This document shows positions 31,242 through 55,248 of a stretch of DNA of 64,000 nt, in pieces. The notes beneath the pieces are model-generated. The model searched no databases and was not told the origin of the DNA. It saw only the letters and a list, made by a program, of their open reading frames with translations. The DNA is taken from assembly GCF_004214935.1 (NCBI RefSeq), contig NZ_SFCC01000001.1, positions 310,001-374,000 on the forward strand. The letters run 5' to 3'. The position numbers and the translations under genes are program-made. The DNA comes from Amycolatopsis suaedae. GTDB lineage: Bacteria; Actinomycetota; Actinomycetes; Mycobacteriales; Pseudonocardiaceae. Within the stretch, counting starts at the first letter, position 1. Every line of letters begins with the position of its first letter.

Positions 31242-32588
31242 TCAGCTGGTTGCCTTCTTCGGCGTCAGGTCGACGTCGACGGTGTTGCCGGGACCAGCGG
31301 TGAACATGCTGATCCAGTCGTTGAGGAAACCGCAGCCCTTCACGCCGGGCAGGTCGTACCCGCCGGTGAGCTTGCCACCGGCGAGCGGGTCGAAGCCGGG
31401 CTTCGAGGCGAGGCTGATCTTCGCGGGCTCGACCGTCCGGCACTCGGCGCCGCCGCCGATGGGGAAGCCGAACGCCTTCACCGACGTCAGCGTGATCCAC
31501 TCCGCGGAGGTGGACTTCAGCTGGCCGTCGATCAGGGTCCCGGTGGTCCTGCCCTCCGGGGTGAACTCGATGCTCGCGGTGGTCGGCAGGAAGTTCATGA
31601 TCTTGAACTCGCCGGTGGTCGGGTCGAGCTTCAGATCCGCGTCGAACTTGCCGGTCGCGAGGTCGTACTTGGCGTCGATTCCGCCGGTGAGCTTCACGGT
31701 GCCGTTCGGGGTCTTGATGAACGACGAGCCGGCCAGGTTGAACCCGTACTCGATCGGGTTACCCGGACCGCCCGCGGGGTCACCAGCCGGGTCACCCGCC
31801 GGGTCGCCAGCCGGATCACCGGCCGGGTCGCCAGCGGGGTCACCCGCGGGATCGCCTGCAGGGTCACCGGCCGGGTCGCCTGCCGGGTCGCCAGCGGGGT
31901 CGCCTGCCGGGTCGCCAGCGGGGTCACCGGCAGGATCGCCGGCCGGGTCACCTGCGGGGTCACCGCCGCCGTCGGTCACCTCGACCGTGCCCAGGACGTG
32001 GTTCTGGCCGTCGTGCTGCTTGCACGGGGCGTCGAACACGCCGAGGCCGGTGTCGGTCCCGTCGGCCTTCTTCGGGTGCAGTTCCTTCAGCTGGATGTCG
32101 TTGACCAGGATGGTCGCGGTCCCCGGCTGCGGGAACGACACCGCCGGAGCGGTGGCCGACGCCTTGAGCACCAGCGGCTGGTTCTGTGCCGGAACAGGCT
32201 GTTCCGGCACGGTGGCCTCGATCTCCAGCGGCAGGTCGAGGCCGGGCGCCTTCAGGTGCGCCTTGGCGATCGCCTTGCCGGAGATCTTCGCCGCCTGCAC
32301 GGCACGCAGGCCGTTGGTCGCCGTCGCACCCGCGTTCGCGACCGTGTCGATCTTGAACTCGGGAGTGAGCGTGTTGACCGGGATGGTGCTCGGGAAATCG
32401 GCGTTGATCTCGACGCTGACGGTCTGGGTCAGGATCAGCGGGAACTCGCAGTCCATCTTCAGTGTCAGCTTGTGCGGCTCGGCCGAACCGATGCCGCTGG
32501 TGAGCAACAGACCGGCCGCGACGACCCCGGCGGAGCCAGCCGCCATGAGCCCCCGGGCCAGTCTCTTGGAACCTCGTGGGTGTTTCAC
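31242..32588 (-). CDS. Secreted DUF6801-type protein with (GDPA)n linker
   Basis: 448 residues. A basic signal peptide (KRLARGLMAAGSAGVVAAGLLLTSGIGSAEP) precedes an N-terminal domain of about 170 residues starting MDCEFPLILTQTVSVEINADFP, typical of DUF6801. A hydrophilic linker of about 16 GDPA repeats then leads to a C-terminal domain ending YDLPGVKGCGFLNDWISMFTAGPGN. Both domains are matched in the protein at 45264, which opens the mce operon, so a role in envelope lipid handling is inferred. Exported and possibly wall-spanning through the linker. The GTG at 32588 is chosen because GGAAGG lies 6 nt upstream. Confidence 0.75.
   Translation of the reverse strand: MKHPRGSKRLARGLMAAGSAGVVAAGLLLTSGIGSAEPHKLTLKMDCEFPLILTQTVSVEINADFPSTIPVNTLTPEFKIDTVANAGATATNGLRAVQAAKISGKAIAKAHLKAPGLDLPLEIEATVPEQPVPAQNQPLVLKASATAPAVSFPQPGTATILVNDIQLKELHPKKADGTDTGLGVFDAPCKQHDGQNHVLGTVEVTDGGGDPAGDPAGDPAGDPAGDPAGDPAGDPAGDPAGDPAGDPAGDPAGDPAGDPAGDPAGDPAGDPAGGPGNPIEYGFNLAGSSFIKTPNGTVKLTGGIDAKYDLATGKFDADLKLDPTTGEFKIMNFLPTTASIEFTPEGRTTGTLIDGQLKSTSAEWITLTSVKAFGFPIGGGAECRTVEPAKISLASKPGFDPLAGGKLTGGYDLPGVKGCGFLNDWISMFTAGPGNTVDVDLTPKKATS
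31777..31966 (-). repeat. Tandem 12-bp repeat encoding GDPA units
   Basis: About 16 in-frame 12-bp units within the DUF6801 gene. The peptide is invariant, while synonymous positions differ widely between units (all four Ala and several Gly codons are used), so selection acts on the peptide rather than on DNA identity. Confidence 0.85.
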
Positions 32589-32978
32589 GATCATCCTTCC
32601 GTGGTATCAACGGTGATACGAATTCGCGGAACTTTCGAATGCGAATTCTCCGGATGGTAGGGAGCGTTGTTCAGAGTTTCGCTACCGCTCAGTAAGTTAG
32701 CCAGCGGGTACGCGGCCGGGCAAGTGGGCGCAAGGCCTGAAAGATATTCGCGTGAAAAGTTGTCACCGGTCTTCATTCAGCTGGCCCGCGCTTTGGCATC
32801 CAGGGCCGATGACCTGCTGTTCCATCGACATTGCTCGCGTTCGTACGACGCCGTGGCGCGAATTGTGTCACGCCCCGCGTAAGCGTCGGGGCATTCTTGA
32901 CTCTGCTGTGGATTCGTTACTAACTTCATCTGTTGATCGCCAGTTCGGCGGCGAATCTCTTCGTCGGTGAGGAGTCAC
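32589..32978. promoter_or_regulatory. Divergent control region of the DUF6801 gene and the lipid-synthase operon
   Basis: 390 bp, noticeably AT-richer than its surroundings and without a gene or A/B repeats. It must hold both divergent promoters. The symmetric element TACCGCTCAGTA (32683-32694; TAC.G..C.GTA) resembles a TetR-type half-site pair. A GCCCCG/CGGGGC hairpin lies near 32875-32895. The ribosome site GAGGAG precedes the SDR start. Confidence 0.5.
32683..32694. promoter_or_regulatory. TetR-like palindrome upstream of the DUF6801 gene
   Basis: TACCGCTCAGTA, with eight of twelve positions symmetric, about 95 bp before the DUF6801 start and 285 bp before the SDR gene. No TetR gene is in the window. 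Low-confidence operator. Confidence 0.3.
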
Positions 32979-33770
32979 GTGAAAATGCAGGACAAAGCGG
33001 TCCTGGTCACCGGGGCTGGTCGCGGAATAGGCGCGGCAATGGCATTGCGGTTCGCCGCTGAGCAGCCACGCGGAATCGTGGTGGCCGACATCGACGAGGT
33101 GGGGGTCCGGCGCACCGCCGCCGACGTCCGCGAACTCGGCGTCGAGGTCGTCGAGATGTGCACCGACGTCGCCGAACCCGACCAGGTACGCGAACTGGTC
33201 ACGGCCGCGGAGAACGCCTTCGGCCCGCTGGACCTGGTGTGCTCCAACGCCGGCGTGGCGACCGGGCAGGGCATCCACGCCCCCGCCCAGGTGTGGTCGC
33301 GCACCTGGGCGATCAACGTGCTCGCCCACGTCTACCTGGCGCAGGCCGTGCTGCCCCGCATGGTGCGTCGCCACGAGGGGTACCTGCTGATCACCGCCTC
33401 CGCCGCCGGCCTGCTCGGCCTGCCCGGCGACGCGCCCTACTCGGTGACCAAGCACGCCGCGGTCGGCGTCGCCGAGTGGCTGGCCGGTGCCTACCAGGCG
33501 GCCGGCGTGCGGGTGAGCGCGCTGTGCCCGCTGGGCGTGCGCACCGACCTGCTGATGGCCGGGGTCCGCACCGGGCATGTCGCCGCCCGGGTCGTCACCA
33601 GCACCGCCCCGCTGCTGGAACCGGGCGACGTCGCCGAGGCGGCGGTCGCCGGGCTGGAGGAGGAACGGTTCCTGATCCTGCCGCACCCGGAGGTGGCCGA
33701 GATGAGCATGCGGCGCGCGGCCGACCCCGACGCGTGGATCACCGAGCAGCAGCGGCGGGTGAACCGATGA
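32979..33770 (+). CDS. SDR-family oxidoreductase, first gene of the lipid-synthase operon
   Basis: 263 residues, classical short-chain dehydrogenase. The NAD(P) motif is TGAGRGIG, followed by Asp for cofactor choice (VVADIDEVG), the structural CSNAGVA, the catalytic Ser in ITASAAG and YSVTK. It could reduce a keto or aldehyde group on the polyketide lipid or make its alcohol head. The GTG at 32979 follows GAGGAG by 5 nt. Its stop overlaps the start of the megasynthase gene (ATGA), so the two are translationally coupled. Confidence 0.87.
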   Translation: MKMQDKAVLVTGAGRGIGAAMALRFAAEQPRGIVVADIDEVGVRRTAADVRELGVEVVEMCTDVAEPDQVRELVTAAENAFGPLDLVCSNAGVATGQGIHAPAQVWSRTWAINVLAHVYLAQAVLPRMVRRHEGYLLITASAAGLLGLPGDAPYSVTKHAAVGVAEWLAGAYQAAGVRVSALCPLGVRTDLLMAGVRTGHVAARVVTSTAPLLEPGDVAEAAVAGLEEERFLILPHPEVAEMSMRRAADPDAWITEQQRRVNR

Positions 33771-36700
33771 CCGGCCACGACGACGAGCGCCCCGAGCTGG
33801 TCCTCGGCGTGACCCCGTCCGCGGCGGCCGCGGTCGCGGTCAGCCTGTCCGGCGGAATCGGTGTGCTGGACCTCGGTTCCGGCGGCCCGGGGGCGCGTGG
33901 AGCGCTCGCCACGGCGGCCGAGCGCGCCCGCGGGAACGCGATCGGCGTCCGGGTTCCGGTCGACTGCGGACTGACCGCAGAGGAGGCACACGACCACGCC
34001 GGCCGGATCGATGTGGTGCTGCTGGACTGGGACGCGCCCTGGCAGATCGCCGATATCCCGAACCGCTGTTGCGTGCTGGTCGAGGTGACGTCGGCCCGGC
34101 AGGCCCGCCTGGCCATGGACCTCGGTGCCGACGGCGTGGTGGTGCGCGGCAACGAGGCGGGCGGGCGGGTCAGCGAGCTGGGCTCGTTCGTCCTCCTGCA
34201 GCAGGTGCTCGCCGACGCCGCCACCGCGGTCGAGCCGTACCCGGTCTGGGTGTGCGGCGGCATCGGCCCGCACACCGCGGCGGCCGCGGTCGCCGGGGGA
34301 GCGGCCGGCGTCGTGCTGGACACCCAGCTCGCCCTGCTTCCCGAATCGGGCCTGCCGGACGAGGTCAGGGAGACCATCGCCGGCAGTGACGGCACCGAGA
34401 GCACGGTCACCGGCGGCGTGCGGACGCTGACCCGGCACGGCCGCGCTCCGCTGCCCGTCGGCCAGGACACCTTCCTCGCCGGCCGGTTCACCCAGCGCTA
34501 CGCGACGGTGGCCCGCGCCGTCCGCGCGGTGCTCGCCGCCATCGCCGACCGGGGCAGCGAACCGGTACTGGACAAGGGAAACCGGCTCGCCAGGCGGTTC
34601 GGCACCGCGCTGCCGGTCGCGCAGGGACCGATGACCAGGGTGAGCGACCAGCCCGCGTTCGCGGCGTCGGTCGCCGAGTACGGCGGACTGCCGTTCGTCG
34701 CGCTGGCACTGGCCTCCGGCGAGCAGACCCGGCGGCTGCTCGACGACACCGCGGCCGCACTGGCCGGGCGGCCGTGGGGCGCGGGCCTGCTCGGGTTCGC
34801 GCCACCGGAGGTGCGGGCGGCGCAGTTCGACGCCATCAGGCAGGTCCGCCCGCCCGCGGCCCTCATCGCCGGTGGCCGCCCGGACCAGGCCAGGACACTG
34901 GAAGAGGCGGGGATCGCCACGTTCCTGCACGTCCCGTCGCCGGGCCTGCTCGGCCAGTTCCTCGCCGCTGGTGCCCGCAAGTTCGTCTTCGAGGGCTCCG
35001 AGTGCGGCGGGCACGTCGGCCCGCGGACCAGCTTCTCGCTGTGGGAGTGCCAGGTCGGTGTCCTGGAGGAGTTCCTCGCCGCCGGTGGCCGCGCCGACGA
35101 CGTGCACGTGCTGTTCGCGGGCGGCATCCACGACGCCCGCTCCGCCGCGATGGTCGCCGCGCTCGCCGAACCCCTGGCACGGCGAGGGGTCGGTGTCGGC
35201 GTGCTGATGGGCACGGCCTACCTGTGCACGGAGGAGGCGGTCGCGCACGGCGCGGTCGGCCCGGCGTTCCAGCGCCAGGTGCTGGCGGCCGAACGCACCG
35301 AGCTGCTGGAGACCGCGCCCGGCCACGCCACCCGCTGCGTGCCCAGCCCGTTCACCGAGACCTTCGCCGCCACCGCCGCCGCGCTGCGCGCCGACGGCCA
35401 TGCCGAGCGGGACGTCTGGCAGCGCCTGGAACAGCTCAACGTCGGCAGGCTGCGGGTGGCGAGCAAGGGCCTGCGCCGCGACGGTGACGAGCTGGTCGAG
35501 GTCGGCGAGCAGGCCCAGCTCGACGAGGGCCTGTTCATGGCCGGGCAGGCCGCGCTGCTGCGGGACGAGGTCACCACCATCCGGCAGTTGCACACCGAGG
35601 TCACCGAGGGCGCCGCCCGGTGGCGGGCGCCCCGGCGCCGTACCGAGCCAGCCGAGAACCCCGCGCGGCCACTGGACATCGCGGTGGTCGGCATGTCCTG
35701 CCTGTTCCCCGGCGCCACCGACCTGGCCGGCTACTGGGCCAACGTCCTGGGCAACGTCGACGCCATCCGCGAGGTGCCGCACACCCGGTGGGACCCGGGC
35801 CTGTACTTCGGCGACGACCCCGGTGACACCTCCCGGACACCGTCCAAATGGGGCGGTTTCCTGCCCGAGATCCCGTTCGACGCGCTGCGGTACGGCATTC
35901 CGCCGAACGCGCTCACCGCGATCGAGCCCGTCCAGCTGCTGGCACTGGAGACCGCGCGGCGGGCGCTGGCCGACGCCGGGTACGCCGACGGCGGCTTCGA
36001 CCGCGCGCGCACCGCGGTGGTGTTCGGCGCGGAGGCCTACAGCGACCTGGCCAACGCCACCAACCTGCGCATCACGCTGCCCGCCCACCTCGGCGAGCTG
36101 CCGCCCGAACTGGACGAGCGGCTGCCCCGGCTGACCGAGGACTCCTTCCCCGGCAGGCTGACCAACGTCATCGCCGGCCGCATCGCCAACCGGCTCGACC
36201 TGGGCGGCGCCAGCTACGCCATCGACGCCGCGTGCGGCTCGTCGCTGGCCGCACTGGACGCCGCCTGCAAGGAACTCGGGGCCGGCGCGGCCGACGTCGT
36301 GCTCTGCGGCGGCGCCGACCTGCACAACGGCATCGAGGACTACCTGCTGTTCGCCTCGGTCGGCGCGTTGTCGCCGACCGGGTCCTGCAAACCGTTCGAC
36401 GCCTCGGCCGACGGCATCGCGCTGGGCGAGGGCGTCGCCTGCGTGGTGCTCAAACGGCTCGCCGACGCCGAACGGGACGGTGACCGGATCTACGCCGTGC
36501 TCAAGGGTGTCGGCAGCGGCAGCGACGGGCGCGCGCTCGGGCTGACCGCCCCCAACGCGTCGGGCCAGCGCCGCGCGCTGGAACGGGCCTACCGCGTCGC
36601 CGGCCTGTCCCCGGCGCAGGTCGGGTTGCTGGAGGCACACGGCACCGGCACGGTCGTCGGCGACAGGACCGAGCTGGAAACGCTCACCACGCTGTTCACC

Positions 36701-39700
36701 GAGGCCGGAGCCGACCCCGGGGCCTGCGTGCTGGGGTCGGTGAAGTCGCAGATCGGGCACACCAAGTGCGCCGCGGGCATGGCCGGGCTGATCAAGTCCG
36801 CGCTCGCCGTGTACACCGGCACGCTGCCGCCGACGGCACACGTCAGCGAGCCCAACCCGGCCTGGCGCGACGGCGCGGACCCGTTCGTGTTCCGGTCGGC
36901 GCCCGCCCCGTGGCTGGCCGAACCCACCGCACGGGTAGCCGGGGTGAGCGCGTTCGGCTTCGGCGGCACCAACTTCCACGCCGTCCTCACCGGACACGAC
37001 TCCGCCGGCTGCGTCCGGCAGGGCCTGTCCGAATGGCCGGCCGAACTGTTCACCTTCCGCGGCGCGGCGGCGGCCCAGCGCGCGGGCGAACTGCTCGCCA
37101 AGCTCACCGAGGCCGCCGCGCAGGGACACCCGTGGCGGCTGCGCGACTACGCCAGGACCGCCGCCGCGCAGGCCGCCGCCGACACCGGACCGGTCCGGAT
37201 CGCGCTGGTGGCACGCGACCTGGACCAGCTCGCCGGGCAGCTGCGGGCCGCGGCCGCCGGGCAGGCCGACCCGGACGGCGGGGTGTACCTCGCGCGGGAC
37301 ACCGAGACCGCCCCGGTGGCGGTGCTGTTCCCCGGTCAGGGCAGCCAGCGGCCGGGCATGCTCGCCGAGCTGCTGGTCGCCTTCCCCGAACTCCACCGGT
37401 TCGCCGCCGCGGCCCCCTCGGCGGCGGCGATGTTCCCGCCCGACGCGTTCGACGAGCAGTCACGTGCCGGCCAGGCCGAGCGGCTGCGGGACACCACGAC
37501 GGCGCAGCCCGCGCTCGGCGTCACCGGGCTCGCCGTCCACCACCTGCTGGGCAGGCTCGGCGTGGTCGCCGACGCCTACGCCGGGCACAGCTACGGCGAA
37601 CTGGTGGCGCTGGCCGCCGCCGGGGTGCTCGACCCGCACCGGCTGCTGGAGCTGAGCAGCGCCAGGGCCGAAGCCATCCGCGCGGCCGCCGGAACCGACC
37701 CTGGTGGGATGGCGGCCGTGGCCGCCGCACCCGCGGCGGTCGAGCGGGAGCTGACCGCGGCGGGACTGGCCGGACGGGTGGTCGTGGCCAACCACAACGC
37801 GCCCAGCCAGGTGGTGATCTCCGGACCGGCGCAACCGCTGGCGGCCGCCGTCGCCGCGTTGCGCGCGGCCGGGCTGGCCGTGGTGCCGCTGCGGGTGGCG
37901 TGTGCCTTCCACAGCCCGGTGGTCAGCGGCGCGGGCGAGGCGTTCGCGCGGGCACTGGCCGGCACCCCGCTGCGCGCGCCCGATCGTCCGGTGTGGACGA
38001 ACCGGGCCGCCGGACGGTACCCGGTACGCCCGGACGAGATCCGGGCCGAGCTGGCCGCACAGATCGGTGCGCCGGTGCGGTTCGCCGACCAGATCGAGGC
38101 CATGTACGACAGCGGCGTCCGGGTGTTCGTCGAAGCGGGCCCCGGGCACGTGCTGACCGACCTGGTCGGCGCGATCCTGGACGGCAGACCGCACACCGCG
38201 ATCGCCGTCGAAGGGCGAGGCCGGGGCATTCCCGGGTTCCTGCACGCGGCGGCCGGGCTGGCCGTCGCCGGGGTGGAGCTGTCCACCGGCTGGCTGTTCG
38301 ACGGGCGCGACGCGGCCGACCTGCGCGGCGTGCCGGTGCCACGGCGTCCGGGTTGGACGGTCGACGGCCAGCTGGTGCGCACGGCCGACGGCCAACCCCT
38401 GCCCGGCGGCCTGCGCCCGGCCGGGCCGGTGGTGACGCTGGCCCGGCGGTCCACCCGCGACGAGCTGGTGGCCGACTTCCTGCGCGGCAGCAGGGAGTTC
38501 ATCCAGAACCAGCGTGAGATCATGCTCGGCTACCTCGGCGCCGTGGAGGTGGAACCCGCCACCGTCGCCGAACCCGTGGTGATCGAGCCGGAACCGGAGC
38601 CCGAACCCGAACCGGTACCGGCGACCACGCCGCTGGCCGCCGTCGTCGGCGTCATCGCGCGGCGCACCGGCTACCCGGAGGACATGATCGAGCCGGGCCT
38701 GGACCTGGAAGCCGGGCTCAGCGTCGACTCCATCAAGCGCACCGAGATCGCCGGGGAACTGGCCACGTTGCACCCCGGCGCCCGGGACCGGGTGGACGAC
38801 CTGGTGGCGGCCCGCACCGCGGCCGCGATGGCCGCCGTGCTCGACCCGGCCCCGGTGGCGACCTCCAGCGCCACCCGGTTCCTGGTCGAACCGGTCGAGG
38901 CCTCCGACGGCCTGTACGACCCGGTCGCCCTGGTCGGCGCGACCGTGCTGGTCGCAGGCGGCCCGGCCGAGCTGGCCGAGGAGGTCGCGGGACAGCTGTC
39001 GGCACGAGGCGCGCTCGCCGTCGTCGGCGACCGGGCGGACGGGCCGGTCCAGGGCCTGGTGTCGCTGCACGCCATGGCGGACCACGACGACCCGGTGCTG
39101 CCCGCGGCCTACCCGCTGTTCCGGGAGATCCTGGCCGGCGCGCCCCGCTGGTGTGCCGCCGTCGCGCCCCCGGCGGGCACCGCCGCGCTGGGCCTGCCCG
39201 GCTTCTTCCGGACGCTGGCCCACGAGTACCCGGACACGCAGACCCGGCTGATCCGGCTCGACCCGAACCAGCCGGCCGGGGAGATCGCCCACGCGGTGGC
39301 GACCGAGCTGCAGACCCGCGGCACCGAGCCGGTGATCACCGTCGCCGGCGACACCCGGCTGAGCACCCGGATCGTCCCGGCTCCGCTGGCCGGGACCGGA
39401 ACACCCGACGCCGCCGCACTGGGCCTGTCGCCCGAGTCCGTGGTGCTGCTGGTCGGCGGCGGCCGGGGCATCACCGCCCGGGTCGCGGTCGCACTGGCCC
39501 GCGCGAGCGGCTGCCGGATCGAGCTGGCCGGCCGCACACCGCTGCCCGACGGGCCCGAGCCACCGGACATCGCCCCGGCAGCGGACCTGCCCGCGCTGCG
39601 GTCGGCGCTGGCCGCCCGCGGCGGCCAGACGGCGGTACAGGTGGACCGCATGGCGCGGGAGGTGCTGGCCGCCAGGGAGGTGGCCGCGACCGTCGCGCGG

Positions 39701-42633: not shown

Positions 42634-42917
42634 CGGACACGGTGCTTGCGGAGATCAGCGCGATGGTGTCCTCGCTGCTGGAAACCTACGGGGTCGACCT
42701 GGACATCGGCAGGGACACCACGTTCCACGAGGACCTCGGCCTGGAGAGCATCGACCTGGTGACGCTCGCGTCGATGCTGGAGGACCGCTACGGGCCGGAG
42801 GTCAACCTGGCGGCGTTCCTGGCCGAGCTGGACATGGACGACGTGATCGGCCTGCGCATCGGCATGCTGGTGGACTTCGTGGCCAGCACCACGAGTGGGG
42901 TGCGGCAGTGGGCGTGA
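42630..42917 (+). CDS. Stand-alone acyl carrier protein
   Basis: 95 residues. The phosphopantetheine serine lies in EDLGLESIDLV, with the usual helix II acidic surface. The GTG start overlaps the upstream stop and follows AGGAGGAG. It differs from the DSIKR-type ACP inside the megasynthase and may receive the finished chain, or serve the hydrolase or transferase step. Acts in the cytoplasm after 4'-phosphopantetheinylation. Confidence 0.85.
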   Translation: MTDTVLAEISAMVSSLLETYGVDLDIGRDTTFHEDLGLESIDLVTLASMLEDRYGPEVNLAAFLAELDMDDVIGLRIGMLVDFVASTTSGVRQWA

Positions 42918-44847: not shown

Positions 44848-44885
44848 TCGTGCGCGAGCGTGGAACTCGCGTACCGGAACGGAGA

Positions 44886-44971
44886 ACTCGCGTGCACGAG
44901 CGTTGATTTCATACCGTGGGACACGCCTCCCACACCGCGGCCCCGCGAGTCCCACCTTCGTGCACGCGAGT
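44886..44971. repeat. D-type inverted repeat
   Basis: ACTCGCGTGCACGA (44886-44899) and its exact complement (44958-44971), separated by 58 bp. Similar words recur on either side and once near 20715. Confidence 0.6.
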
Positions 44972-45222
44972 CCCACCCTCCCGCACTCGAACTCCACCTT
45001 CACGCACGCCACCGGCACTACGTGAGAACCGGCGTCCACATCGTGAGTTCTGCGTTCGGGTACGCGACTTCCGGGCTCGGCGCCACCCACGTCGCCGTGC
45101 CGGGCCCGTGCTTGGCGGCGGATGAGCAAGACCGCCGCCGCCGGGTTGGCGTGGCGGACAAGAAATCCGGTGCCCGCGGGCCCGGCGCCGGCAAGGTGTT
45201 GTTCCTCGGCGTACCCGTAAGT

Positions 45223-45239
45223 AACGTCCGAAAAACGTT
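45223..45239. promoter_or_regulatory. Inverted repeat upstream of the mce operon
   Basis: AACGT-N7-ACGTT, centred about 33 bp before the first start codon. Candidate operator or part of the promoter. It shares the N7 spacing but not the arms of the TTGTC-N7-GACAA sites. Confidence 0.3.
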
Positions 45240-45263
45240 GGCACAACGGCAGATTGGCGCATC

Positions 45264-46403: not shown

Positions 46404-47167
46404 ACGTGACGGCACCGGCCCGCGAGTTCGGCCGCCTGTTCTCACTCGGCCTCGACGTCACGGCCGGGATGTTCCGGCGCCCGTTCCAGCTACGCGAGTT
46501 CGTCCAGCAGTTCTGGTTCGTCGCCAGCGTCTCGATCCTGCCCGCCATGCTCGTGTCGATCCCGTTCGGCGCCGTGCTGACGTTGCAGCTCGGCTCGCTG
46601 ACCGCCCAGATCGGCGCCGAGTCGTTCAACGGCGCCGCCAGCGTCCTCGCCGTCATCCAGCAGGCCAGCCCGATCGTCACCACCCTCGTCGTGGCCGGCG
46701 CCGGTGGTTGCGCGATCTGCGCCGACCTCGGATCCCGCACCATCCGCGAGGAGATCGACGCGATGGAGGTGCTCGGCGTCTCCCCGGTGCACCGGCTGGT
46801 CGTGCCGAGGGTGCTCGCGTCCATGGCCGCGGCGGTGCTGCTCAACGGCCTGGTCAGCGTCGTCGGCGTGCTCGGCGGGTACGTCTTCAACGTCGTCCTG
46901 CAGGACGGCACGCCGGGCGCGTTCGTGGCCAGCTTCTCCGCGCTCGCCCAGCCGTCGGACCTGTGGGTGAGCGAACTCAAGGCGCTGATATTCGGCTTCA
47001 TCGCCGGGCTGGTCGCGTCCTACCGCGGCCTCAACCCGAAAGGCGGTCCCAAGGGCGTCGGTGACGTGGTGAACCAGTCGGTGGTGATCACGTTCCTGCT
47101 GCTGTTCTTCGTCAACCTCGTGATCACCGTGCTGTACCTGCGATTCGTGCCGCCGAAGGGAACCTGA
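46400..47167 (+). CDS. yrbEA: YrbE/MlaE-family ABC permease A of the mce operon
   Basis: 255 residues with about five hydrophobic helices. The permease signature includes FWFVASVSILPAMLVSIPFGAVLTLQ and the ATPase-coupling motif IREEIDAMEVLGVSPVHRLVVPR. It forms, with the next gene product, the membrane channel part of an MlaE-like importer for lipids. The cognate ATPase (MceG/Mkl type) is not in the window, as is normal for actinobacteria, where it is encoded elsewhere. GTG start in a 4-bp overlap with the DUF6801-type gene. Confidence 0.93.
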   Translation: MNVTAPAREFGRLFSLGLDVTAGMFRRPFQLREFVQQFWFVASVSILPAMLVSIPFGAVLTLQLGSLTAQIGAESFNGAASVLAVIQQASPIVTTLVVAGAGGCAICADLGSRTIREEIDAMEVLGVSPVHRLVVPRVLASMAAAVLLNGLVSVVGVLGGYVFNVVLQDGTPGAFVASFSALAQPSDLWVSELKALIFGFIAGLVASYRGLNPKGGPKGVGDVVNQSVVITFLLLFFVNLVITVLYLRFVPPKGT

Positions 47168-47168
47168 C

Positions 47169-47978
47169 GTGACCACGCGTGCCGGCGACTCGATGGCCAG
47201 GCTGGGCGACCAGCTCACCTTCTACCTGCGGGTGCTGGGCTGGGTGCCGTTCGCCGTGCGCCGCTACCTGCGCGAGGTGGTGCGCCTGCTCGGTGAGGTC
47301 AGCTTCGGCAGCGGCGCGCTCGCGGTCATCGGCGGCACCGTCGGCGTCATGGTGGGCCTGTGCGTGTTCACCGGCACGGTCGTGGGCCTGTCCGGCTACT
47401 CGGCACTGGACCAGATCGGCACGGCCGCCCTGTCCGGGTTCGTCTCCGCGTACTTCAACACCAGGGAGATCGCGCCCCTGGTGGCGGCGCTGGCGCTGTC
47501 GTCGACGGTGGGATCCGGCTTCACCGCGCAGCTGGGCGCGATGCGGATCAACGAGGAGATCGACGCGCTGGAGGTGATGGCGATCCGCAGCGTGCCCTAC
47601 CTGGTGACCACCAGGGTCGTCGCCGGATTCGTGGCCATCGTGCCGCTCTACGTCATCGGCCTGCTGACCTCCTACCTGGCCTCCCGCACGGTCACCGTGG
47701 TGTTCAACGGCCAGTCCGGCGGCACCTACGACCACTACTTCAGCCTGTTCCTGCCGCCGGAGGACGTGTTGTACTCCTTCGCCAAGGTGCTGGTGTTCAG
47801 CGTCGGCATCATCCTGACCCACTGCTACTACGGCTTCCGCGCCGCCGGCGGGCCCGCAGGCGTGGGCGTCGCCGTCGGCCGGTCGGTGCGGACGTCCATC
47901 GTGCTCGTGGCCGTACTGGACTTCTTCCTCAGCCTCGCGCTCTGGGGCGCGACGACCACGGTGCGGGTCGCGGGATGA
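47169..47978 (+). CDS. yrbEB: YrbE/MlaE-family ABC permease B of the mce operon
   Basis: 269 residues, second permease half. It has the coupling motif INEEIDALEVMAIRSVPYLVTTRV, hydrophobic helices (FGSGALAVIGGTVGVMVGLCVF; VAGFVAIVPLYVIGLLTSYL) and DHYFSLFLPPEDVLYSFAKVLVF. Pairs with YrbEA. It starts at GTG one base after the preceding stop, and its own stop overlaps the MceA start by 4 bp. Confidence 0.93.
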   Translation: MTTRAGDSMARLGDQLTFYLRVLGWVPFAVRRYLREVVRLLGEVSFGSGALAVIGGTVGVMVGLCVFTGTVVGLSGYSALDQIGTAALSGFVSAYFNTREIAPLVAALALSSTVGSGFTAQLGAMRINEEIDALEVMAIRSVPYLVTTRVVAGFVAIVPLYVIGLLTSYLASRTVTVVFNGQSGGTYDHYFSLFLPPEDVLYSFAKVLVFSVGIILTHCYYGFRAAGGPAGVGVAVGRSVRTSIVLVAVLDFFLSLALWGATTTVRVAG

Positions 47979-49120
47979 GCGCCCGGCTGCGCGCGCAGGC
48001 ACTCGGCGTCGCCTTCGTCGTCCTGTTGGGACTGCTGGGCTGGTTCGCCGTCGCCGTCTACGACAAGGCGTTCACCGACACGGCCACCGTCACCCTGCGC
48101 ACCGACCGGGTCGGCACCCAGCTGCGGCCGGGCGCCGACGTGAAGGCACGCGGGGTCGTCGTCGGCTCGGTCGGCGCCGTCGAGCCGACCGCGCAAGGTG
48201 TCGACGTCACACTCGACCTGCGGCCGGAGTCGCTGGACTCGTTGCCGGCCAACGTGTCGGCCCGGCTGCTGCCCAAGACGTTGTTCGGGCAGCGGTTCGT
48301 CGACCTCGTCCTGCCCGAACGGGAAACCGGGCGGCTGGACGCCGGTGCGGTCATCGACCAGGACCGCACCAGCAGGGCCATCGAGCTGGAGAAGGCGCTG
48401 CGCGACCTGATGCCGCTGCTACAGGCCGTCCAGCCGCACAAGCTCGCCGGCACTCTCGGCGCGGTGTCCAGCTCGCTGGACGGCAGGGGCGGGCAGCTCG
48501 GCGAGACGCTGACCGGGCTCAACGCCTACCTGAGCAAGCTGACCCCGGCGATGCCGCAGATCCAGGACGACATCACCGCACTGGCCGACACGCTGGCCGT
48601 CTACCAGGACGTCGCGCCGGACATCGTCGCCGCACTGGCCGAGCTGACCACGACCAGCCGCACCATCGAACAGCAACGCACCGGCCTCGCCGACCTGCTC
48701 GGCACGCTCACCACGGCGGCGTCCGATCTGGACGGTTTCCTGCGCGCCAACCAGGGCAGCATCATCGGGCTGTCCGCGAGCAGCCGTCCCACCCTGGAAC
48801 TGCTCGCCCGGCACAGCGCCGAGTTCCCGTGCCTGTTCGCCGCGCTCACCGAACTCAAGCCCCGCGCCGACGCGGCTCTCGGCGCCGGGACCGACCGGCC
48901 GGGGCTGCACATTCAGCTCACCGTCAAGCCCCCAGTGCCGGGCCCCCGACCGGCGCCGCCTGCGGGCGGCTGCCCGGCCGTAGGCGGCGCTTCCACCTCG
49001 TCCGGCCTGGTCACCGAGCTGATCGCCCAGGCACAGGGCATGTCCCCGGCCGACGTTCCCACCTGGGGCGACCTCCTGGTCGGCCCGCTCTACCGCGGCG
49101 CGGAGGTGACGTTGCGATGA
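47975..49120 (+). CDS. mceA: Mce family protein A
   Basis: 381 residues. An N-terminal membrane anchor (LGVAFVVLLGLLGWFAVAVYDKAF) precedes the MCE/MlaD domain (about 36-115; GTQLRPGADVKARGVVVGSV), followed by a long helical region (LNAYLSKLTPAMPQIQDDITALADTLAVYQ) and a C-terminal domain ending GPLYRGAEVTLR, typical of MceA. It forms one of six rings or tubes that carry hydrophobic substrates across the envelope. ATG overlaps the YrbEB stop. Confidence 0.9.
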   Translation: MSARLRAQALGVAFVVLLGLLGWFAVAVYDKAFTDTATVTLRTDRVGTQLRPGADVKARGVVVGSVGAVEPTAQGVDVTLDLRPESLDSLPANVSARLLPKTLFGQRFVDLVLPERETGRLDAGAVIDQDRTSRAIELEKALRDLMPLLQAVQPHKLAGTLGAVSSSLDGRGGQLGETLTGLNAYLSKLTPAMPQIQDDITALADTLAVYQDVAPDIVAALAELTTTSRTIEQQRTGLADLLGTLTTAASDLDGFLRANQGSIIGLSASSRPTLELLARHSAEFPCLFAALTELKPRADAALGAGTDRPGLHIQLTVKPPVPGPRPAPPAGGCPAVGGASTSSGLVTELIAQAQGMSPADVPTWGDLLVGPLYRGAEVTLR

Positions 49121-50142
49121 GGCGCATGCTCGGCCCGATGCTCAAAGGGCTGGTGTTCACAGTGGTCACCGGCCTGGCGACCATCCTGCTGGGACTGGCC
49201 ATCATGAGCGGCGGCGGTGGTGGCGCGACCGGCACCGCCTACGTCGCCCGGTTCACCGACGTCACCTCGCTCAACCCCGGCGACGACGTCCGCATGGCCG
49301 GCGTGCGGGTCGGCAGCGTCGTCGAGGTGCGGGTGGCCGACCGCAGGGTCGCGGAGGTCGAGTTCGCCCTCGACGGGGACCGCCGGATCCCGGCGACGAC
49401 GACCGCCACCATCAAGTTCCGCAACCTGGTCGGGCAGCGCTACATCGCGTTGGACTCCGACCCCGGCGTTCCGGCCGGGCTGCTGCCACCAGGCGGGCTC
49501 ATCCCACTGGAACGCACCCGCCCGGCGCTGGACCTGACGGCGATGCTGAACGGGTTCAAGCCACTGTTCCGGGCGCTGAACCCGGACCAGGTCAACGCGC
49601 TGGCCCAGCAGGTGGTCCAGGTGCTGCAGGGGGAGGGCGGCACCGTGGAGAGCCTCGTCCGGCACACCGCGTCGCTGACCAGCACACTGGCCGACCGCGA
49701 TCGCGTGATCGGGCAGGTGATCATCAACCTGGACACCGTGCTGTCCGACGTGGCCGCCCGGGACGAACGGCTGTCCGGCCTGGTCGGCACCACGCAGGAG
49801 CTGGTGTCCGGCCTGGCCCGCGACGCCGGGCCGATCGGCGAGGCGATCTCCGGGCTGTCCGCGCTGACCACCAGCACCGCCGACCTGCTCGGCCGGGGCA
49901 GGCAACCGCTCAAGGCCGACATCGCCGCGCTGGGGGAGCTGGCCACCACACTCGCCGACAACACCCCGGTGTTCGAGGAGTTCATCCGCGCACTGCCGCT
50001 GAAGTACGAGGCCATCGGCCGCGTCGCCTCCTACGGCGGCTGGACCAACCTGTTCCTGTGCCTGGCGTCCTCCGACGCGCCACCCGCTCCCGGCGGCCCG
50101 CCGGTCGGCATCCCGCTGACCGAGGCGAGGTGCCTGCGATGA
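49117..50142 (+). CDS. mceB: Mce family protein B
   Basis: 341 residues. N-terminal anchor (GLVFTVVTGLATILLGLAIM), MCE domain (FTDVTSLNPGDDVRMAGVRVGSV), helical middle, and a short C-terminus ending GWTNLFLCLASSD with a conserved cysteine. Part of the hexameric Mce assembly predicted for lipid transport. ATG in a 4-bp overlap with mceA. Confidence 0.9.
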   Translation: MRRMLGPMLKGLVFTVVTGLATILLGLAIMSGGGGGATGTAYVARFTDVTSLNPGDDVRMAGVRVGSVVEVRVADRRVAEVEFALDGDRRIPATTTATIKFRNLVGQRYIALDSDPGVPAGLLPPGGLIPLERTRPALDLTAMLNGFKPLFRALNPDQVNALAQQVVQVLQGEGGTVESLVRHTASLTSTLADRDRVIGQVIINLDTVLSDVAARDERLSGLVGTTQELVSGLARDAGPIGEAISGLSALTTSTADLLGRGRQPLKADIAALGELATTLADNTPVFEEFIRALPLKYEAIGRVASYGGWTNLFLCLASSDAPPAPGGPPVGIPLTEARCLR

Positions 50143-51116
50143 AACGGTTCAGCGAGCGCAACCCGGTCCGCGTCGGCGTCGTCGGCGGGGTGCTGATGCT
50201 GGCCGCCGGCCTGCTGACGTTCTACGCCGGGGAACTGCCGGGCGTCGGCGGCACCACCTACACCGCCCAGTTCCGCGAGGCCGCCGGGCTCAAGGCGGGC
50301 GACGAGGTGCGGGTGGCCGGGGTGAAGGTCGGCGAGGTGGACGACGTCGAGCTGACCGGCCGCCACGTCACCGTCACCTTCGAGTCGCAGGTGTGGCTGG
50401 GCGACCGGACGTCGGCCGCCATCAAGATCAAGACCTTGCTGGGTCAGAAGAACCTCGTGCTCGACCCGCTCGGCACCGGCGAGCTGACCGACGCGATCCC
50501 GCTGGACCGCACGATGACGCCCTACGACGTCAACGACGCGTTCGGCGAACTCGCCACCACGGTCGGCAAGCTCGACACCAACCAGCTCGCGGAGAGTTTC
50601 CGGGTGCTGTCCGGGACGTTCTCCGCGGCGAGCCCGGAGGACGTCCGGGCCACGCTGCGGGGGCTGGCCGAGCTGTCCACCGTGATTTCGTCACGTGACG
50701 CCGAACTGAAGTCGCTGCTGGGCAACCTCGGCACGGTGAGCCGGACGGTCGCCGAGCGCACGGGCGAGTTCCAGCGGCTGATCACCGACGGGGGAGTGCT
50801 GCTCGACGAGCTGAACCGGCGGCGGCAGGCGATCGCGTCGCTGCTCACCGGCACCCAGGAGCTGTCGCGGCAGATATCCGGCCTGGTGGCCGACAACCGG
50901 GCCCAGCTCGGCCCGGCGCTGGAGCAGCTGGACCGGGTGACCGAGGTGCTGCGGCGCAACCAGTCCGAACTGGACCGCAGCCTGCGGCTGGCCGGGCCGT
51001 TCTACCGCCTGCTCGGCAACGTCGTGCGGACCGGCCCGTGGCTGGACACCTACCTCTGCGGACTCGTCCCCGCCCCGGGCGGGGGCTGCGTCCCACCGAA
51101 ACCGGGAGGCCGCTGA
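50139..51116 (+). CDS. mceC: Mce family protein C
   Basis: 325 residues. Anchor (RVGVVGGVLMLAAGLLTFYAG), MCE domain (FREAAGLKAGDEVRVAGVKVGEVDDV) and a long helical part (VISSRDAELKSLLGNLGTVSRTVAERTGEF), ending PWLDTYLCGLVPAPGGGCVPP. Same organisation and coupling as its neighbours. The stop TGA overlaps the mceD ATG by one base. Confidence 0.9.
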   Translation: MKRFSERNPVRVGVVGGVLMLAAGLLTFYAGELPGVGGTTYTAQFREAAGLKAGDEVRVAGVKVGEVDDVELTGRHVTVTFESQVWLGDRTSAAIKIKTLLGQKNLVLDPLGTGELTDAIPLDRTMTPYDVNDAFGELATTVGKLDTNQLAESFRVLSGTFSAASPEDVRATLRGLAELSTVISSRDAELKSLLGNLGTVSRTVAERTGEFQRLITDGGVLLDELNRRRQAIASLLTGTQELSRQISGLVADNRAQLGPALEQLDRVTEVLRRNQSELDRSLRLAGPFYRLLGNVVRTGPWLDTYLCGLVPAPGGGCVPPKPGGR

Positions 51117-52117
51117 TGCGAGCGACACGGTGGGTGGCGCTGGCCGCCACCGCGGTGGTGCTGGCCGCCGCGGGTGGCTGGGCCCTGCTGACCGGCGGCT
51201 CGACCACGGTGACGGCCTACTTCACCGCCGCGGTCGGCCTCTACCCGGGCTCGGACGTGCGGGTGCTGGGCGTCGCGGTGGGCACGGTCGACGCCGTCGA
51301 ACCGGAGGGACAGCGCGTCCGGGTCACCATGTCGCTGGACCCCGGCGTCGCCGTCCCGGCCGACGCCGGGGCGCTGGTGGTCACGCCCAGCCTGGTCAGC
51401 GACCGCTACGTGCAACTCGCGCCGGTCTACGAGACCGGCCCGCGGCTGGCCGGCGGTGCGGTCATTCCCGAGTCCCGCACCGTCGTGCCGGTCGAACTGG
51501 ACCAGCTGTTCACCAGCCTGGAGAAGCTGACCGTCGCGCTCGGGCCGGACGGTGCCAACCGCGACGGCGCGCTGAGCGAACTGCTCGACAGCGGCGCGCA
51601 GGTGCTCGGCGGAACCGGGCGCGACCTCAACCGGACGATCGCCGAGCTGGGCAAGGCGACCCGGACCCTGTCCGGCTCCGAGGAGGACCTGTTCTCCACT
51701 GTGGACAGCCTGCAGCGGTTCACCGGCATGCTGGCCGCCTACGACCAGCAGGTCCGCACGTTCGACAACCTGCTCGGCACCGTCACCCGCTTCCTCGCCG
51801 ACGACCGCGACGACTTCGCCGCCGCACTGAGCGAGCTGGCCGGCGCGCTGGGCACGATCAGCGGGTTCATCAACGACAACCGCGCCCGCATCAAGTCCAA
51901 TGTGGACAAACTAGCCGGGACGACGACGTTGCTGGCCCAGCAACGCGAGTCGCTGGCCGAGGCGCTCGACCGCGCGCCGGGTGCGCTGACCGGCCTGCTC
52001 GGCGCCTACGACCCGGAGCGGGGAACCGTCGACGTGCGGACCAACCTCGCCGAGTTCGCCTACGGCCAGGGTGCTCCCGCGCTGCCGCTGCCGTCGGCCG
52101 AGGGAGGTGGCCGGTGA
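51116..52117 (+). CDS. mceD: Mce family protein D
   Basis: 333 residues. Anchor (VALAATAVVLAAAGGWALLT), MCE domain (FTAAVGLYPGSDVRVLGVAVGTVDAV) and a helical region through about residue 300. The Pro-rich tail seen in some MceD proteins is absent. Coupled to mceC by a TGATG overlap and to mceE by a GTGA overlap. Confidence 0.9.
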   Translation: MRATRWVALAATAVVLAAAGGWALLTGGSTTVTAYFTAAVGLYPGSDVRVLGVAVGTVDAVEPEGQRVRVTMSLDPGVAVPADAGALVVTPSLVSDRYVQLAPVYETGPRLAGGAVIPESRTVVPVELDQLFTSLEKLTVALGPDGANRDGALSELLDSGAQVLGGTGRDLNRTIAELGKATRTLSGSEEDLFSTVDSLQRFTGMLAAYDQQVRTFDNLLGTVTRFLADDRDDFAAALSELAGALGTISGFINDNRARIKSNVDKLAGTTTLLAQQRESLAEALDRAPGALTGLLGAYDPERGTVDVRTNLAEFAYGQGAPALPLPSAEGGGR

Positions 52118-53079
52118 AACGCCTGCTCGCGCTGTCCGCGGTGGTCCTGGTGGCGGGCTGCTCGTTCGGGGTCTACGACGTGCCGCTGCCCGGCGGCGCC
52201 GATCTCGGCGACCGTCCGTACCGGGTGACCGTCGAGTTCGCCGACGTGCTCGACCTCGTGCCGCAGTCCGGTGTCAAGGTCGGCGACGTGCCGGTCGGCA
52301 GGGTGGACCGGGTCGAGCTGGCCGACGACGGCCGGACGGCCAGGGTGACGTTGCTGGTCAACGGGAACACCCCGCTGCCAGCCAACGCCGTCGCCCGGCT
52401 GCGGCAGTCCAGCGTGCTCGGCGAGAAGTTCGTCGAACTGGACGCACCGGCCCAGCCCGCGCAGGCCAGGCTCGCCGACGGCGCGGTGATCCCGCTGGCC
52501 CGCACCAACCGCAACCCCGAGGTCGAGGAGGTGCTCGGCGCGCTGTCGCTGCTGCTGACCGGCGGGGGAGTGGCCCAGCTGGAGAACATCTCCCGGGAGC
52601 TGAACGCCGCCTTCCACGGCAACGAACCGGAGATCCGGTCCCTGCTGGCCACGATGAACACGTTCGTCAGCGGGCTCGACGCGCGGCGCGGCGAGATCAC
52701 CAGGGTGCTGGAGAAGGCCGACGCGTTCGCGGCCCGGCTGGCCGGGCGGCGCGGCGACATCGCCAACCTCATCGACAACCTCGGCGGCGGCATCGCCGTG
52801 CTCGCGCAGCAGCGGGAGGCGTTCGTGCGGATGCTGACGTCGCTGGGGTCGCTGGCCGAGGTGGGCACCACCACGGTGAACCGGGCGAAGGAGGACCTGC
52901 TGGCCGACCTGCGGGCACTGGAGCCCACGCTGCGCAAGCTCACCGAGTCCGGGCAGAACCTGCCGCAGGCCATGGAGATCCTGCTGACGTTCCCGTTCAC
53001 CGACCCGGTGCTGGATGGCATCAAGGGCGACTACCTGAACCTCTACCTGACCCTCGACACGGCGACGGGTGGCCGCTGA
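52114..53079 (+). CDS. mceE: Mce family protein E, lipoprotein
   Basis: 321 residues. The signal peptide ends in the lipobox VLVAGC, so unlike the other five this member is lipid-anchored (LprN-like), the hallmark of MceE. The MCE domain is FADVLDLVPQSGVKVGDVPVGRV. The long helical region ends FPFTDPVLDGIKGDYLNLYLTLD, the conserved MceE C-terminus. GTG start after GAGGGAGG. Confidence 0.92.
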   Translation: MKRLLALSAVVLVAGCSFGVYDVPLPGGADLGDRPYRVTVEFADVLDLVPQSGVKVGDVPVGRVDRVELADDGRTARVTLLVNGNTPLPANAVARLRQSSVLGEKFVELDAPAQPAQARLADGAVIPLARTNRNPEVEEVLGALSLLLTGGGVAQLENISRELNAAFHGNEPEIRSLLATMNTFVSGLDARRGEITRVLEKADAFAARLAGRRGDIANLIDNLGGGIAVLAQQREAFVRMLTSLGSLAEVGTTTVNRAKEDLLADLRALEPTLRKLTESGQNLPQAMEILLTFPFTDPVLDGIKGDYLNLYLTLDTATGGR

Positions 53080-54131
53080 TGCTGACCAGGTTCGTCCGGA
53101 TCCAGGTGATCGTGTTCCTCGTGCTGGCACTGGCCGGTGTCGCCTACGTCGGCGCCCGCTACGCCCGGCTGGACGCGTTGTTCGGCGGCGCGGGCTACCA
53201 GGTCCGGCTCCAGCTGCCCGACTCCGGCGGCGTGTTCACCAACGCCGAGGTCACCTACCGCGGGGTGGGCATCGGCAGGGTGGGCGAGCTGCGGCTGGTG
53301 GACGGCGGCGTGGAGGTCGACCTGCACATCGACGACGACGCCCCCGCCGTACCGGCCGACCTCGACGTGGCCGTCGCCAACCGGTCGGCGGTCGGCGAGC
53401 AGTACCTGGACCTGCGGCCGCGGCGGGCGGGTGAGCCGTTCCTCGCCGGCGGCGCGGTGATCCGCCCGGCCGCGCCGGTGCTGCCGCCGCCGGTGGACAG
53501 CGTGCTGCTCAACCTGGACCGGCTGGTCGAGTCCGTGCCGAAGGACGAGCTGCGCACGGTCGTCGACGAGCTGTACGACGCGACCGAGGGCGCCGGTCCG
53601 CACCTGCAGACGCTGCTGGACACGACGGCGTCGGTCACCCGCGCCGCCACCGAGCACCTGCCGCAGACGCTGAGCCTGATCGCCGACGCCGGCCCGGTGC
53701 TGCGGACGCAGGCGGACATGGCGGGCGCGCTGTCGTCGTTCGGCACCAACGCGAAGCTTGTCGCCGAGCAGCTGACCCGGTCCGACGGCGACATCCGGGC
53801 GCTGATCTCGTCGGCGCCCGCCACGGCGCGGCAGGTGAGCGCGCTGCTCGCGGAGAGCGGCCCCGGACTGGGCACGGTACTGGCGAACCTGCTGACGACG
53901 TCGAACGTGCTGCTCACCCGGCAGGAAGGGGTGGAGCGGCTGCTGGTGGTCACGCCCGCCGCCGTCGACGCCGCCGGGCGGATCCTGCGGCCGGAGGGCA
54001 CCAGCGCCGGCCTGCAGACGACGTTCTTCACCCCGCCGCCGTGCACCCGCGGCTACGAGGGAACGCCGTACCGCAACGGCCTGGACGTGTCGCCGGCGCC
54101 GCTGAACACCGCGGCTCGGTGTACCGGATGA
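53079..54131 (+). CDS. mceF: Mce family protein F
   Basis: 350 residues. Anchor (RIQVIVFLVLALAGVAYVGARY), MCE domain (LPDSGGVFTNAEVTYRGVGIGRVGEL), helical region, and the C-terminal FTPPPCTRGYEGTPYRNG typical of MceF. Last member of the six-protein set. Coupled to mceE by a TGATG overlap. Confidence 0.92.
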   Translation: MLTRFVRIQVIVFLVLALAGVAYVGARYARLDALFGGAGYQVRLQLPDSGGVFTNAEVTYRGVGIGRVGELRLVDGGVEVDLHIDDDAPAVPADLDVAVANRSAVGEQYLDLRPRRAGEPFLAGGAVIRPAAPVLPPPVDSVLLNLDRLVESVPKDELRTVVDELYDATEGAGPHLQTLLDTTASVTRAATEHLPQTLSLIADAGPVLRTQADMAGALSSFGTNAKLVAEQLTRSDGDIRALISSAPATARQVSALLAESGPGLGTVLANLLTTSNVLLTRQEGVERLLVVTPAAVDAAGRILRPEGTSAGLQTTFFTPPPCTRGYEGTPYRNGLDVSPAPLNTAARCTG

Positions 54132-54145
54132 GGAAGGTGGCCCCG

Positions 54146-54649
54146 ATGCGAGGACTCGTCCTGATCGCGGTGGTGTGCGTGGCGCTGGCAGGCGGGTTCG
54201 CCGGCTGGAGTGGCTGGCGGTGGTGGCAGGCCGAGTACGGCGGCACGGCGGTCGCCGCGCGGGCCCGCGACGACGCGATGGACGCGGGCAGGCAGGCGGT
54301 CGCGCTGCTCAACACGCTCGACCACCGGGCCGTCGACGACGGCCTGCGGCGCTGGCTGGAGGTGTCGGCGGGCGCGTTGCACGAGGAGCTGTCCCGCGCG
54401 CAGCGGGACGGCCGCGAGCGGCTGGCCGGGGCCCGCACGGTCACCGTCGGCACGGTCGTCGACGCCGCCGTCACCGAGCTGGACGCCGCCGCGGGCACGG
54501 CCAGGATGATCGCGTCGGTCGACATCCAGGTCACCCCCGACGGCGGCCAGCCGACCACGAAACGTGCCCGCCAGCAGGCCGACCTGGTCCGGGTCGGCGA
54601 CACCTGGAAGCTCGGCGCGCTCGGCCAGGTGCCGACGAGCCCGGTCTAG
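54146..54649 (+). CDS. Mce-associated membrane protein 1
   Basis: 167 residues. One transmembrane helix near the N-terminus (MRGLVLIAVVCVALAGGFAGW), then an alpha/beta exported domain with ARDDAMDAGRQAVALLNTLDHR, the pattern of Mce-associated (Mas) proteins. These stabilise or assist Mce complexes in mycobacteria. Start ambiguous: ATG 54146 has GGAAGGTGG just upstream, while ATG 54128 overlaps the mceF stop by 4 bp and would add six residues. Confidence 0.85.
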   Translation: MRGLVLIAVVCVALAGGFAGWSGWRWWQAEYGGTAVAARARDDAMDAGRQAVALLNTLDHRAVDDGLRRWLEVSAGALHEELSRAQRDGRERLAGARTVTVGTVVDAAVTELDAAAGTARMIASVDIQVTPDGGQPTTKRARQQADLVRVGDTWKLGALGQVPTSPV

Positions 54650-54660
54650 GAGGAAGTGTC

Positions 54661-55248
54661 ATGGTGCGTGTCCACGTCGCCGCCCGGCCGCCGACGCAGC
54701 GGGCCCGGGTGGTCGCCGGAACCCGCCGCCGGGTCCCGGTTCCGCCCCCGCCTCCGGCGAAGCCGGTGCGACGGTCGCCGCTGATCCTGTTCGCCGTCGC
54801 CGTGATCCTGGCCGCCGCCGGGGTCTGCTTCACCGTCGCCCGCACCACGGTGGCGAACACCGCCGTTGTCGACGCCGGTGCCACCGCCGAGGTCGGCGGG
54901 CAGGTCGGGCAGGGGCTGGAACGGGTCTTCACGTTCCGCTTCGACAACCCCGAGCCGACCCGGCAGGCCGCCGCCGAGCTGTTCACCGGCGACGCCACCG
55001 GGCAGTACGCCGGGCTGTTCGACCCGGCCGTGGCCGACGCGGCCAAGCAGCGGCTGGAACTACGGTCGAAGGTGGCCGTCGCCGGGGTCACCATGCTCAG
55101 TGGCGACCGGGCGGGCCTGCTGGTGTTCCTGGACCAGAGCATCACCAGGGGCGACACCGGCGCGACCCGCTCCGGCGGCGCGCAGCTGAGCGTCACCGCC
55201 GTGCGGGCCGACGGCCGCTGGCGCGTCGACACCCTGCAGGCCCGCTGA
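54661..55248 (+). CDS. Mce-associated membrane protein 2
   Basis: 195 residues. A basic and Pro-rich cytoplasmic N-terminus (RRRVPVPPPPPAKPVRRS), one transmembrane helix (PLILFAVAVILAAAGVCFTVA) and a C-terminal NTF2-like exported domain with AAAELFTGDATGQYAGLFDP. Likely partner of the Mce complex. The ATG follows AGGAGGAAG, which overlaps the preceding stop codon. Last gene of the operon; an A-type palindrome follows. Confidence 0.85.
   Translation: MVRVHVAARPPTQRARVVAGTRRRVPVPPPPPAKPVRRSPLILFAVAVILAAAGVCFTVARTTVANTAVVDAGATAEVGGQVGQGLERVFTFRFDNPEPTRQAAAELFTGDATGQYAGLFDPAVADAAKQRLELRSKVAVAGVTMLSGDRAGLLVFLDQSITRGDTGATRSGGAQLSVTAVRADGRWRVDTLQAR

Follow-up and report, generated by a model that had tools for sequence, protein, structure and literature searches.

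Results

Gene content of the island

We analysed a 64,000-nucleotide stretch of the Amycolatopsis suaedae genome (hereafter the window; contig C11:310001-374000 of a 7.54 Mb genome), in which an operon for an iterative lipid synthase (32967-44847, + strand) is followed, 416 bp 3' of it and on the same strand, by a complete mce transporter operon (45264-54131), with an ABC-2 exporter nearby. The comparisons below suggest that these three parts may form a conserved envelope-lipid island, in which a lipid would be made, exported by the ABC-2 pair and retrieved by the Mce complex. The two operons contain the following genes; domains are abbreviated KS (ketosynthase), AT (acyltransferase), ACP (acyl carrier protein), KR (ketoreductase) and DH (dehydratase).

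32967..33770, + strand: SDR reductase, first gene of the operon (Pfam adh_short, E 1.3e-40; 4-bp overlap with the next gene)
33767..40267, + strand: iterative lipid synthase NMO-NMO-KS-AT-ACP-KR with one DSIKR ACP (Pfam/NCBIfam and motif)
40264..42633, + strand: AT-DH subunit (AT match; DH match below the cut-off)
42630..42917, + strand: free acyl carrier protein (PP-binding, E 7.2e-9; motif DLGLESID)
42908..43702, + strand: alpha/beta hydrolase (Abhydrolase_1, E 9.9e-22; GNSFG motif)
43699..44847, + strand: GT1 glycosyltransferase (GT), macrolide/EryCIII-like (Pfam/NCBIfam)
45264..46403, + strand: secreted beta protein of two domains (DB), first gene of the mce operon
46400..47167, + strand: YrbEA/MlaE permease (MlaE, E 6.4e-66)
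47169..47978, + strand: YrbEB/MlaE permease (MlaE, E 1.2e-61)
47975..54131, + strand: MceA-MceF, six MlaD-domain genes (six PF02470 matches on C11 358080-363420; TIGR00996 on MceA)

Pfam and NCBIfam domains, gene overlaps and intact motifs confirmed every gene named in the initial annotation of this DNA, in the order and on the strand given there. That annotation, which covered 31242..55248, overlooked the DB gene at the head of the mce operon, the ABC-2 pair just beyond its range (57357-59071, - strand) and the fact that its starting point, 31242, belongs to an opposite-strand DUF6801 gene. From the SDR to the GT gene, neighbours overlap by 4-10 bp and look like one operon; a second tight series, with 4-bp overlaps and one 1-bp gap, runs from the 45264 gene to MceF (the start codons of MceD and MceF are uncertain).

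In the large protein (33767-40267), Pfam and NCBIfam recognised NMO (in two stretches), KS, AT and KR, and the ACP was recognised from the single DSIKR motif, not by Pfam. Its top NCBIfam model was PfaA (TIGR02813), at 807.9 bits and under the cut-off of 1010.1. The PP-binding match of the free ACP was scored in a longer open reading frame (ORF; 42375-42917), and for the DH half of 40264-42633 no domain match to solved structures appeared in the best 60 of 73 matches. The motifs of the KS (C, H, H), both ATs, the ACPs, KR, hydrolase, GT and SDR are all intact.

The synthase-mce linkage is conserved in two clades

We surveyed 60 relative genomes, including that of the window. KS-AT matches with an E of 1e-30 or better were found in 47, many being ordinary polyketide synthases, and a tree was built from 47 close KS-AT rows. 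Clade A comprised the window, Actinokineospora, Haloechinothrix, Kutzneria, Herbihabitans and genome G017; clade B was mostly Amycolatopsis, and a third clade was designated C. Among decidable rows, mce was linked in 7/8 of clade A and 10/11 of clade B, against 0/18 in clade C and 0/6 elsewhere; four rows (Herbihabitans, G002, G011 and G021) were left undecided at contig ends. Grouping A and B together was rejected (p-AU 0.005, on a quick tree with long branches present). Wherever enough sequence was available, Amycolatopsis clade B loci were linked (20/20; 10 in the tree, 10 placed by similarity only); in G013 mce begins about 13 kb past the GT gene, and in A. spheciospongiae the linkage was inferred across a contig break. 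No mce was seen in the C38 regions of NBRC 105648, and the window's own genome has a second synthase of this kind, on contig C5, without mce nearby.

Homologues of the window synthase occurred in 45 other genomes of the 393 sampled in the class. Ten loci of five further families in the class all kept the synthase, AT-DH, ACP, hydrolase and GT (10/10), and none had mce (0/10). The synthase and GT are therefore the old unit, and the mce link is special to Pseudonocardiaceae. The linkage proposed in the initial annotation therefore stands for clades A and B (17/19 decidable rows) and for 29 of 54 decidable mce loci (see below), but we rejected it as a trait of all such synthases, given none in the 24 rows outside A and B and none in the class-wide loci; unlinked homologous synthases in close relatives, which that annotation had itself named as evidence against its claim, do exist.

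Recurrence of the arrangement in Actinokineospora, Haloechinothrix, Kutzneria and many Amycolatopsis indicates that the linkage goes beyond chance. Synthase and mce-side sequences also diverge in parallel (r 0.99 for 23 clade B loci, 0.56 for 7 clade A loci). The arrangement might still be an inherited neighbourhood without function, as a single genus supplies many of the linked loci and these do not count as independent. However, apart from regulators, a Mas-like gene and an HTTM gene, most window genes that surround the block have no counterpart next to the relatives' blocks. The linkage is also maintained over four genera and, within clade A, where both sides average about 60% identity, so that we regard mere inheritance as very improbable.

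Clade A differs from clades B and C in the AT-DH subunit. KS-CLF, present in B and C, is missing from all 8 clade A loci (window and seven others) where the start of the AT-DH gene is visible; the clade A product is therefore predicted to differ from that of B and C. In a small-genome relative from outside the order (G265, L239/L240), the second KS between KR and AT is also missing, apparently independently of clade A.

The mce operon persists without the synthase

From the mce side, named genomes were scanned with five aligned YrbEA sequences as query, which gave 61 loci with this mce type. In 29 of them (23 Amycolatopsis, 3 Actinokineospora, 2 Haloechinothrix and 1 Kutzneria) the synthase preceded mce on the same strand; in 25 it was absent upstream (three of these show only 6-8 kb of upstream sequence), and 7 loci were cut off. 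A DUF6801/barrel homologue was nearby in 57/61, and three of the remaining four were cut off.

Examples of this mce type without synthase are loci L101, L103, L147, L155 and L157. In A. thermalba, A. tucumanensis, A. deserti, A. acidicola and Actinokineospora pegani, an acyl-CoA ligase gene, DB and this mce occur with no synthase genes, and the first four also retain a divergent DUF6801 gene upstream. Remnants of the synthase were seen in two relatives. In Actinokineospora bangkokensis, an unrelated gene and the ligase-DB-mce block flank a decayed relic (L143:1153-4131), a 992 aa ORF whose KS has lost its cysteine. In Haloechinothrix aidingensis, the synthase operon is reduced to its GT (L112:5386-6510), which precedes ligase and mce. 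As the synthase-less loci were found via mce, they are evidence that its persistence is possible, not that it is the rule. The YrbEA tree had few supported branches and was therefore not used to date gains or losses.

An ABC-2 exporter accompanies the synthase

Beyond the mce block, the window contains an ABC2_membrane permease and an ABC ATPase, the two components that identify an ABC-2 exporter (57357-59071).

57357..58148, - strand: ABC-2 exporter permease (PF01061, E 5.6e-26; 55% to the clade B permease)
58145..59071, - strand: ABC exporter ATPase, DrrA-like (PF00005, E 8e-24; 62% to the clade B ATPase; Walker motifs; DrrA1-3_C at 22.4 bits, below the cut-off)

The pair sits between GT and mce in 23/23 named clade B loci and beyond mce in A. 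xionganensis, H. halophila and H. alba; in A. fastidiosa the permease was also seen, at the edge of the stretch, and in the Kutzneria stretch the pair was not found. The two clade A/B loci without mce keep it beside GT (G017a, on the same strand, and NBRC 105648 C38, L172). In a genome-wide search of 28 hand-chosen genomes, a permease of at least 48% identity was present in 12/13 genomes with a clade A/B or B-sister synthase and 0/15 without; two weaker matches came from Kutzneria (44%) and Saccharopolyspora hirsuta (45%). The contrast had the same direction within each of Amycolatopsis, Actinokineospora and Haloechinothrix, and relatives that have lost the synthase lack the exporter and retain this mce. 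At two clade C loci (G025 and G030), the GT gene seems to be followed by an MFS-like gene of the multidrug type, as judged by eye from translations.

Because the exporter tracks the clade A/B synthases and synthase-less relatives keep mce without it, the ABC-2 pair is a better candidate than Mce for moving the product. The initial annotation had assigned this role to a dedicated Mce complex that would export, insert or recycle the product. Three observations agree with that proposal: the operons share a strand 416 bp apart, the linkage is found in two synthase clades, and the two sides diverge in parallel, although shared descent alone yields this. However, mce stays after synthase loss, as the L143 relic and the solitary GT of L112 illustrate, the exporter tracks the synthase far better across genomes than mce does and stays with it where mce is absent, and tested mycobacterial Mce systems import (PMC9882608). 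A Mce exporter or inserter of the product thus appears unlikely, and Mce as sole mover was rejected on the distribution of the exporter and the occurrence of mce without synthase.

Barrel proteins and flanking features

Four further features lie around or between the operons.

31242..32594, - strand: DUF6801 secreted protein (DA; Pfam PF20611, E 4.4e-25, 89.1 bits, over the curated cut-off)
44849..45008, no strand: 21-nt-unit repeats in inverted arrangement, directly after the GT stop
54146..55248, + strand: two small mce-associated (Mas-like) genes, at about 54146-54649 and at 54661-55248
55314..56519, - strand: PucR-type regulator at the end of the mce block (HTH_30, E 4.5e-16)

DA consists of an N-terminal DUF6801 domain, a linker and a C-terminal domain that it has in common with DB (BLASTP E 6e-12 over 147 aa); the linker carries a long DPAG tandem repeat. 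DB itself, predicted to comprise an Ig-like domain and a C-terminal eight-stranded barrel, had no Pfam match at 0.001, PF20611 included, and its kinship to DA is through the C-terminal domain only. A profile search of DB against solved sequences gave four chance-level matches only, and no Mce- or Mla-associated protein was among the 50 fold matches listed, which is not an exclusion. DUF6801 and barrel-domain genes also adjoin a second mce operon of the same genome (G000:C26:339885-350769), and 19 DUF6801 matches were counted in the 4.2 Mb genome G036, from another family of the order.

No MceG/Mkl ATPase was found in the window, where the sole resemblance is a 32% match to the ABC-2 ATPase; such a gene lies 5' of YrbEA in 5/6 linked clade A relatives. 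The first small gene after mce is 49-51% identical to post-mce genes of L099, L100 and L130, and we take both small genes to be Mas-like from their position. Two Haloechinothrix species (L162 and L163) have, close to their islands, relatives (48-55%) of the HTTM-domain protein encoded at 25833-27185 of the window.

The repeats after GT may mark the end of the synthase transcription unit. They belong to a family interspersed genome-wide (118 forward and 115 reverse matches with at most 3 mismatches; 0 for a reversed control pattern). A promoter and terminator scan of the 416-bp gap returned only a weak promoter-like site at the start codon and a minus-strand terminator-like site. An ORF at 44860-45267 was rejected as a gene, as it has no family and a low-complexity translation across repeat DNA.

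These features bear on the possibility that the operons share regulation only, with Mce moving a cargo of its own (for example, environmental fatty acids) in the same growth phase or stress under PucR-type regulators. PucR-like genes are neighbours of the block in the window and in several relatives, the gap and repeat element part the two operons, and mce, ligase and DUF6801-type genes persist without the synthase. Regulation alone, however, would not require adjacency, and the link is specific to this mce type in two synthase clades despite five mce operons in the genome (ten MlaE and thirty MlaD matches). Shared regulation is thus a credible account, to which we give less than even odds.

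Discussion

Proposed function of the island

The reading we favour, with a probability of roughly 0.45, is a conserved three-part envelope-lipid island for synthesis, ABC-2 export and Mce retrieval. The PUFA/hgl-type (polyunsaturated fatty acid/heterocyst glycolipid) iterative synthase, with its ketoreductase, dehydratase and NMO-type enoylreductase, would build a largely reduced long acyl chain. The SDR, hydrolase and free ACP would complete or release it (the hydrolase perhaps by chain release or transfer), and GT1 would attach a sugar, so the product would be a glycolipid. The ABC-2 pair would take it outward. DB, a plausible candidate lipid carrier from its predicted barrel, and probably also DA, may carry lipid to the neighbouring Mce complex for re-uptake. 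The cargo would be the product itself, or acyl chains released from the product and from further lipids of the envelope. Given the presence of an exporter, Mce is more economically read as a retrieval system. The core is probably the lipid factory with its ABC-2 exporter, and Mce a separable, retrieving partner.

Several observations weigh against this proposal. The 48% line was set after the matches had been seen, and counting the two weak matches gives 13/13 against 1/15; the genomes of that survey are related and not independent, so that p-values from it are too optimistic. The exporter lies on the opposite strand, outside both operons, and Kutzneria has a linked synthase and mce with its distant permease unlinked. 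Since mce persists without the synthase, its cargo cannot be solely the synthase product. The FadD-like ligase with an SRPBCC domain that precedes mce in clade A relatives, also where the synthase is gone, is lacking in the window (lost or never present) and in all 23 named clade B loci. The fold match of DB is weak, with no Foldseek match at E 0.001 or better and OmpA scoring equal to DynF, a representative of the DynF/YceI-like lipid-binding barrels, in which eight strands enclose a hydrophobic cavity for the ligand.

More tentatively, we suggest that the island may encode an entire lipid cycle in bacteria that lack mycolic acids, in which dedicated glycolipid synthesis and ABC-2 export would be closed by Mce retrieval, a new secreted barrel protein passing the cargo to Mce. 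Few actinobacterial Mce systems have a known cargo, and the adjoining synthase offers a concrete candidate substrate to make, label and test; if the cycle exists, the genes next to this Mce transporter would reveal its physiological cargo. The secreted barrel protein would be a first candidate for a lipid carrier feeding an Mce complex, and the synthase family, spread across the class, would gain a hint of function. Because the exporter and Mce parts separate in evolution, export and retrieval should be distinguishable by deletions.

Comparison with known systems

DrrAB-type ABC-2 exporters serve daunorubicin, and DrrABC serves mycobacterial phthiocerol dimycocerosates (PDIM). The window's pair shares with them an ATPase and ABC2_membrane permease beside a polyketide locus and differs in its DrrA1-3_C score. 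In the heterocyst glycolipid system a thioester reductase frees the chain; no such domain was found among the window's operon genes scanned, the rest of the genome not having been searched. The hgd genes of that system presumably encode a DevBCA-type exporter, and we know of no Mce in the hgl island. Nor, to our knowledge, does a lipid synthase operon precede mycobacterial mce1; here, unlike in mce1, a secreted barrel protein is the first gene.

The accessible text on Pfa-like secondary lipid synthases, which defines them by at least one KS, ACP and KR in a fatty acid synthase/polyketide synthase cluster, describes what the window contains, with a shared KS, AT, ACP, KR, DH and ER content, and lists Type M members for Frankia, Actinosynnema, Streptomyces avermitilis and Renibacterium (Shulse and Allen 2011, PMC3098273). 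Compared with that text, the present loci have NMO domains fused at the front, no KS-CLF in clade A and a linked GT, ABC-2 exporter and mce; the likeness to Type M rests on the taxon listing. Two traits of PUFA (omega-3) synthases, tandem ACPs (4-6 in Type A) and KS-CLF in the second subunit, were not found in the window, where there is a single DSIKR motif. Kutzneria albida kal28, from the same bacterial family, has genes similar to omega-3 PUFA synthases and is likened here by description, not sequence; no transporter is mentioned in the available portion of the source (PMC4210621). In mycobacteria, the mce1 locus carries fadD5 (PMC1810536), which the acyl-CoA ligase of clade A relatives resembles, and Mce1 is described as importing (PMC9882608).

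A literature search covering few subscription journals returned no paper on such a synthase linked to mce, on the three-part island or on DUF6801. The synthase and Mce are thus of known kinds, and their three-part combination was not found in the literature searched. Within that literature, the initial statement that no such system had been described holds. It needs qualifying by the cyanobacterial hgl island, which already joins Pfa-type synthase genes and the hglT glycosyltransferase to hgd genes needed for deposition (PMC11804610). The A. suaedae island shares with it a GT alongside the synthase (compared by presence, not HglT homology) and the idea of making a lipid and moving it.

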